From a virus, in the IMG/VR virus record IMGVR_UViG_3300031722_000966, positions 1-33,407 of that record: DNA of 33,407 bases; one strand, given 5' to 3'. Shown piece after piece: positions 23,830-24,412 of the stretch. A program made the position numbers and the translations under genes. How positions within the stretch are numbered: the first letter of the stretch is position 1; the number at the start of each line of letters is the position of its first letter. The notes beneath the pieces are model-generated. The model was given only the letters and a program-made list of their open reading frames with translations. It was not told the DNA's origin and did not search any database.

Positions 23830-24080
23830 GACGGTTGTCCTTCTGTAGTGGCGGCGGTTGGGGTGGCGCCAATTTCCACCTTGGTTCGGCGGTGGTGGTA
23901 GCGCTTGCTGCTGGTGGGCTGGCGCTCGGCCATCTCGGCCAAGGCGGTGAACTGCTGGGCCAGTCGGCGCAGCTCATCAGGGCGGACTTCGAGTCCGTTG
24001 AAGGGCTCGGAGTCGAGCGTCACCAGCGGCTGGCCGAGGCGGCAGCGGCTGATGGTGGCGGCCAGGCGAGCAGTGCTCAT
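23826..24080 (-). CDS. Small hypothetical early protein
   Basis: The protein is 84 aa from the ATG at 24080, which overlaps the preceding stop by 4 bp; the longer frame lies in the other gene's shadow. The sequence STARLAATISRCRLGQPLVT followed by helical ELRRLAQQFTALAEMAE and a basic SSKRYHHRRTK suggests a small nucleic-acid or protein-binding factor. No family recognised. Confidence 0.65.
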   Translation of the reverse strand: MSTARLAATISRCRLGQPLVTLDSEPFNGLEVRPDELRRLAQQFTALAEMAERQPTSSKRYHHRRTKVEIGATPTAATTEGQPS

Positions 24081-24412
24081 GCGGCACCGCCGTTTCGGGT
24101 ATTCCACAGAGCGGCGGCTTCTTTGCCGGTGTTGCCCACGGCGCAGACGTTGGCCGGGCACGCTTTGTTCTCGCAGGAAAGGAAGTGGAAGTGGTCTTCC
24201 TCATCCTCGAAAACATCGGCGACGGGCTGCGCACCGCAGAAGGGGCACGGCAGCAGGCCCACCAAGCGGGTTTTGGGGTCGATCACATGCATGATCTCGG
24301 GCTGCAAGATCTCGCCCGTCACCGGGTGCGCAAGGCACACGTCGGCGCGGTAGCCATCGGCCATGTGTGCGCTGGCTGCGAGTTCAGATTTGGTTTGTTT
24401 GATGTTGGACAT
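24077..24412 (-). CDS. Chimera: transposase A fragment fused to Lar-like zinc ribbon
   Basis: In this 111-aa protein residues 17-49 (MADGYRADVCLAHPVTGE onward to DPKTRLVG) correspond to the region around the first catalytic Asp of the phage's own transposase; at DNA level 24278-24366 matches 21089-21177 at about 80 of 89 positions. Residues 52-111 form a restriction-alleviation (Lar)-like zinc ribbon: CPFC (56-59), C80 and C85, then AAALWNTR. Lar proteins dampen type I restriction. The fragment cannot be catalytic, as the other acidic residues are absent. The joint is open in frame without a stop. The role of the added segment is unknown. Confidence 0.8.
   Translation of the reverse strand: MSNIKQTKSELAASAHMADGYRADVCLAHPVTGEILQPEIMHVIDPKTRLVGLLPCPFCGAQPVADVFEDEEDHFHFLSCENKACPANVCAVGNTGKEAAALWNTRNGGAA

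Follow-up and report, generated by a model that had tools for sequence, protein, structure and literature searches.

The stretch of DNA analyzed here, hereafter the window, is a viral sequence of 33,407 nucleotides from a Mu-like phage, and its early region carries an ORF of 111 amino acids (24077–24412, minus strand) in which a piece of transposase is joined to a zinc ribbon. The ORF is composed of a leader (residues 1–16), a transposase-derived piece (residues 17–45, perhaps to 52) and a Lar-type zinc ribbon (residues 53–107; 24092–24256, minus strand). This fusion gene is located between an HTH gene just upstream (24447–24671, minus strand), a member of the BcepMu gp16 family (TIGR04111, 70.4 bits with a cutoff of 34), and several genes preceding tnpA and tnpB. 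In related phages, other genes stand between the HTH gene and the gene for a 384-amino-acid protein, such as a 208-amino-acid frame in locus L013, which we take to be antirepressor-like.

The tnpA gene (20126–21871, minus strand) is whole and encodes a MuA-like transposase of 581 amino acids, including both the DDE core and the Mu C-terminal domain. It matched PF09299 (45.8 bits, cutoff 21.7), phrog_310 (E 5.7e-88) and, with a profile of 12 rows, the MuA structures 4fcy and 1bcm; the score with PF00665 was 20.4 bits, below the cutoff of 32.6. Three residues, D235, D302 and E343, are invariant across 12 transposase sequences, the latter two being presumably catalytic from the DDE pattern. In front of tnpA, a conserved gene of 197 amino acids (21789–22382, minus strand), with homologues at the corresponding position in L006, L013, L014 and L038, gave a weak match to the N-terminal part of phrog_310 (E 2.1e-4) and may be a split-off N-terminal part of the transposase. 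This gene was rejected as a further copy of tnpA, since it showed no match to the phage's own TnpA, and no second tnpA remnant was detected nearby by the repeat and self-match searches. A Lar-like gene without the transposase piece was observed in a related Mu-like phage (L011, 11498–11932, minus strand; L039, 8015–8449, plus strand), about 4–5 kb or less beyond its transposase region.

The ribbon of the fusion gene passes the gathering score of the Pfam Lar family PF14354 (33.6 bits over residues 53–107, cutoff 28.6) and matches phrog_599 (E 7.2e-08). With NCBIfam TIGR03655, the score was under the cutoff (34.6 versus 39.6 bits), though positions 1–55 of the 55-position profile were matched, and the ribbon is therefore referred to as Lar-like rather than as a firm Lar member. 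The marks of the family, cysteines C56, C59, C80 and C85 (numbered in the fusion) together with the C-terminal WNTR, are all present in the translation and the alignment, and the ribbon is intact. It would be the working module of the protein, probably a small zinc protein of the restriction-alleviation type. The 111-amino-acid protein contains only the first Asp region of the DDE triad and gave no match to Pfam rve or Mu-transpos_C; phmmer against PDB returned just a translation factor (E 0.41), and PADLOC returned no match.

The first-pass annotation of this DNA had noted an ungapped match of about 89 bp with some 9 mismatches between the fusion gene and tnpA, in frame with a CPFC ribbon and including the region of the first catalytic Asp. 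All three observations were confirmed. The repeat search aligned 24277–24366 (minus strand) with 21088–21177 (minus strand) over 90 nt with 9 differences (90% identical), in the same orientation and without a gap, the two copies of this direct repeat being 3189 nt apart. The similarity far exceeds what chance would give (blastn E 4.9e-27), and the pair is the sole dispersed self-match of at least 45 nt in the window and 55 related loci, some of which overlap each other; all other self-matches are adjacent or overlapping copies. The frame is common to both copies and continues, in the fusion gene, into LLPCPFCG at the start of the Lar ribbon. The stretch of tnpA includes the codon of D235, and the 12-transposase profile aligns the ADGY of the window over the GDGY of MuA chains 4fcy and 1bcm, the Asp of which we take to be D269 of MuA. 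Thus the piece contains the equivalent of the first catalytic Asp, and the other two catalytic residues lie outside it. At its downstream end, blastn against the transposase DNA of L010 and L004 extends the match, with gaps, to 24257 (113 columns, 78.8%), and the transposase-derived part may reach residue 52 from the resemblance of PKTR-LVG to LKSRVLVG. Residues 46–52 are ambiguous, however: KRLVGLLPCPHCG (RLVGLLPCP) also occurs in L007, in a zinc-ribbon ORF that is unrelated.

Other repeats were also observed in the window. A perfect 12-bp palindrome, GGAAACGTTTCC, is present four times (4844–4855, 10766–10777, 17170–17181 and 26507–26518), while shuffled sequences gave a mean of 0.07 even with up to one mismatch allowed. 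The four copies are located about 60–70 bp upstream of late-gene starts, GTG 4781 (minus strand), ATG 10703 (minus strand), GTG 17109 (minus strand) and ATG 26589 (plus strand), the copy at 4844 falling within the end of the preceding gene. The palindrome was also found in 7 of 131 loci (L003, which is the same phage as the window, and L010, L011, L012, L017, L027 and L037, which are transposase loci of this phage type); when only ATG was considered as a start, 4 of 8 locus sites had one at a distance of 60–74 bp. GGAAACGTTTCC may be the operator bound by the product of 17352–17777, a Mor/C-like late activator (phrog_836). Tandem repeats exist inside late genes, one of 255 nt (9960–10469, 89%) in a tape-measure-like gene of 846 amino acids and one of 120 nt (14703–14942, 97%).

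After comparison of the piece with transposase DNA, its nearest relative was found to be the phage's own tnpA (78/87 nt), the next best being 71/87. Two residues of the piece, E34 and P38, resemble those of other transposases, while the phage's own tnpA has K34 and A38, in common with L013 and L014, and the donor may therefore have been a sister phage. Taking the nucleotide identity and these two residues together, the donor would be the transposase of this lineage or of a close sister, copied some time ago. The leader and the residues just after the piece scored only a little higher than chance against the transposase profile, at levels reached by 9 of 500 and 7 of 200 shuffles, respectively, and an older, longer and now eroded homology could extend into the leader and past the piece.

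Over the 29 codons starting from ATG GCC GAT (87 nt), the copies show 9 differences, 6 of them replacement and 3 silent. The conservation of an open frame after several mutations had been taken by the first-pass annotation as a sign that the fusion has persisted. When 9 substitutions were introduced in a neutral simulation (20,000 trials), 78% of the copies kept an open frame, and amino acid changes averaged 6.3 as compared with the 6 observed; an open frame is therefore expected without selection. The comparison of replacement and silent changes proposed at that stage thus gave a neutral-like result, the 6:3 ratio being equal to the neutral expectation, but it is also compatible with weak constraint or adaptive change, and one sequence cannot show neutrality. 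Based on eight outgroup transposases, we placed Y26C, W36L and R37Q together with about two silent changes on the fusion branch, and I35T with one silent change on that of tnpA. Codons 34 and 38, which tnpA shares with L013 and L014, could be placed on neither branch. In every transposase segment listed, the three positions altered on the fusion branch are Y, W or F, and R.

A search for other proteins of this construction, also proposed in the first-pass annotation, found no second fusion in the phage, plasmid, IMG/VR, GTDB and whole-genome sets. The 36-residue piece was detected in 132 of 50,697 phage records, at 132 places, one in each, and the annotated ones among the matches listed are transposases. 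Of the best 60 of 293 phage records matched by tblastn, nearly all cover the ribbon only. Two plasmid records matched, one by the ribbon side and one as a transposase. The piece lies inside transposase frames in all 27 IMG/VR loci confirmed with the conserved patterns, some of them cut by contig ends, and in 4 of 4 GTDB loci. Among 12 records or genomes searched individually, 11 matched, the best hit in each being a transposase frame (one cut by a contig end); two of these 11 also hold a separate ribbon. In the order of one host relative, 8 of 399 genomes matched (six transposase-size frames, one ribbon alone and one chance frame), and in its family 2 of 392 (one transposase and one ribbon-side hit, in G699); a third draw, overlapping the order set, gave 5 matches in 399 genomes, all of transposase size. 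Two candidates were judged to be chance matches. One, in pAh6-C (two records; residues 1–82, 32%, E 0.2), the one phage among the tblastn matches listed with more than the ribbon, starts upstream of an HNH gene; the other, the chance frame of the order set, is an 81-amino-acid frame in G036 without CPFC. Two degenerate DNA patterns specific to the fusion gene gave no match in the IMG/VR set, from which the window's own record is evidently absent; a conserved sister fusion could thus be hidden, as near records of the window may lie outside the searched sets. In one open-access literature library we found no report of such a fusion, and the matching passages of two papers hold nothing on Lar. 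As far as the searched collections show, the fusion is a unique occurrence with neutral-like divergence, a combination that the first-pass annotation had named as evidence against its persistence.

Among the alternatives to accidental capture of the piece, the one that survives best is that the piece is a translational or spacer accident and that the working protein starts at TTG50 or GTG51 to give an MGLLPCPFCG-like terminus; many Lar proteins likewise begin about 6 residues ahead of CPFC. In the 73 Lar ORFs listed, the first in-frame Met precedes CPFC by anything from 6 to several hundred residues, two of the ORFs having no such Met, and in many of them the distance is 6–14 residues, a pattern that GTG51 would match. 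In contrast, the ribosome-binding signals point to the first Met. A Shine-Dalgarno-like GAGAAG (24419–24424, minus strand), weak with a duplex energy of −3.0 kcal/mol, is located six bases before ATG 24412, whereas the values are +1.1 for M17 and +0.4 for both TTG50 and GTG51, without a Shine-Dalgarno signal. From these signals translation probably starts before the transposase piece, and the piece is therefore probably translated. A start after the piece, which the first-pass annotation had considered as a point against its own proposal, is thus opposed by the signals, and we rejected the downstream start as unlikely.

A role of the piece in the phage was also considered. The strand region could act on transposase A or its partner B, by docking, as a decoy or as a dominant-negative module, as first suggested from the sequence, or could bring the ribbon to the transpososome and thereby protect newly transposed DNA from restriction. 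The piece is in frame and probably translated, the fusion keeps the catalytic Asp and the ADGYRADV core without change (a point that counts against a passenger), and the gene shares the early region with tnpA and tnpB. Against such a role, the fusion is unique in the searches, its changes are neutral-like, and the Y, W and R positions conserved among transposases are altered. Furthermore, no fold is predicted for the piece. AlphaFold2, run on an alignment of 26 rows (9 transposase segments, 16 viral ribbons and the fusion itself), which is thin and limits the result, gave a mean pLDDT of 71.4, with block means of 42–64 in residues 11–50 and 89–93 in residues 51–100. The transposase part was predicted to form only two strands of two residues each and the ribbon three strands and a helix, and the prediction thus does not favor a stable transferred module. 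With a single occurrence, altered conserved residues and a low-confidence, nearly unstructured segment, there is no positive evidence for the decoy, dominant-negative or docking roles, and we regard a functional chimera of any of these kinds as very unlikely. Less credible still is the specific proposal that the piece with the first catalytic Asp was recruited as the N-terminal module of the ribbon, physically linking the zinc protein to transposase A or B and coupling transposition with protection from restriction.

The repeat might instead be kept for its DNA, as a shared regulatory or recombination site, as two copies lying 3189 nt from each other in one direction might suggest. In eight transposase genes, however, silent-site identity was 0.53 in the segment versus 0.47 in the whole gene, similar to its neighbors, and related loci are without a second copy; with this ordinary silent-site conservation within tnpA, we rejected a DNA-level element as highly improbable. 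An assembly artefact is scarcely credible, even though the window comes from an IMG/VR-type virus record and the fusion was seen in no other record. The copies differ at 9 of 87 sites and cannot be one sequence placed twice, the neighboring gene order is kept as in relatives, and L003, a separate contig, matches 7155 nt of the phage at 100% identity, though it ends short of the fusion.

We therefore favor, as quite likely, an account in which an accessory ribbon gene captured a small copy of tnpA in frame by accident, the copy being tolerated as an N-terminal tail. In this Mu-like phage, of the BcepMu/KS10 type, the ORF would be an accessory early-region gene for a Lar-type zinc ribbon, and its 5' end may have been rebuilt by duplicative copying of about 90–110 bp from the tnpA of the same lineage. 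This copying was probably illegitimate or aided by microhomology, and would have left tnpA whole. The transposase-derived stretch would now be a translated passenger, an N-terminal extension of the ribbon as the putative working module. Lar ribbons often bear unrelated and diverse N-terminal extensions (73 ORFs listed from 74 loci), and a passenger extension fits that pattern. The locus provides a clean snapshot of gene remodelling, with the donor and its in-frame copy in one genome, separated by 9 differences of which several can be placed on branches. The main lesson is that a frame still open after a few mutations argues only weakly for selection. If the piece were functional, it would represent a new way of coupling transposition to anti-restriction.

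Compared with known systems, the fusion shares with the Lar family (PF14354, TIGR03655 and phrog_599) the CPFC ... C ... C ribbon and the C-terminal WNTR helix, but differs in its N-terminal extension from a transposase, which is absent in the 73 ribbon ORFs listed. With MuA-like DDE transposases (phrog_310; MuA 4fcy and 1bcm), residues 17–45 are homologous around the first catalytic Asp, but the fusion retains only about 30–36 of 581 residues, and the DNA-binding and C-terminal domains are missing. Like composite (mosaic) viral genes in general (e.g. PMC4202312), the fusion is built from pieces of unrelated families; it differs in that its donor gene persists alongside it in one genome and in that the donated piece is smaller than a domain.
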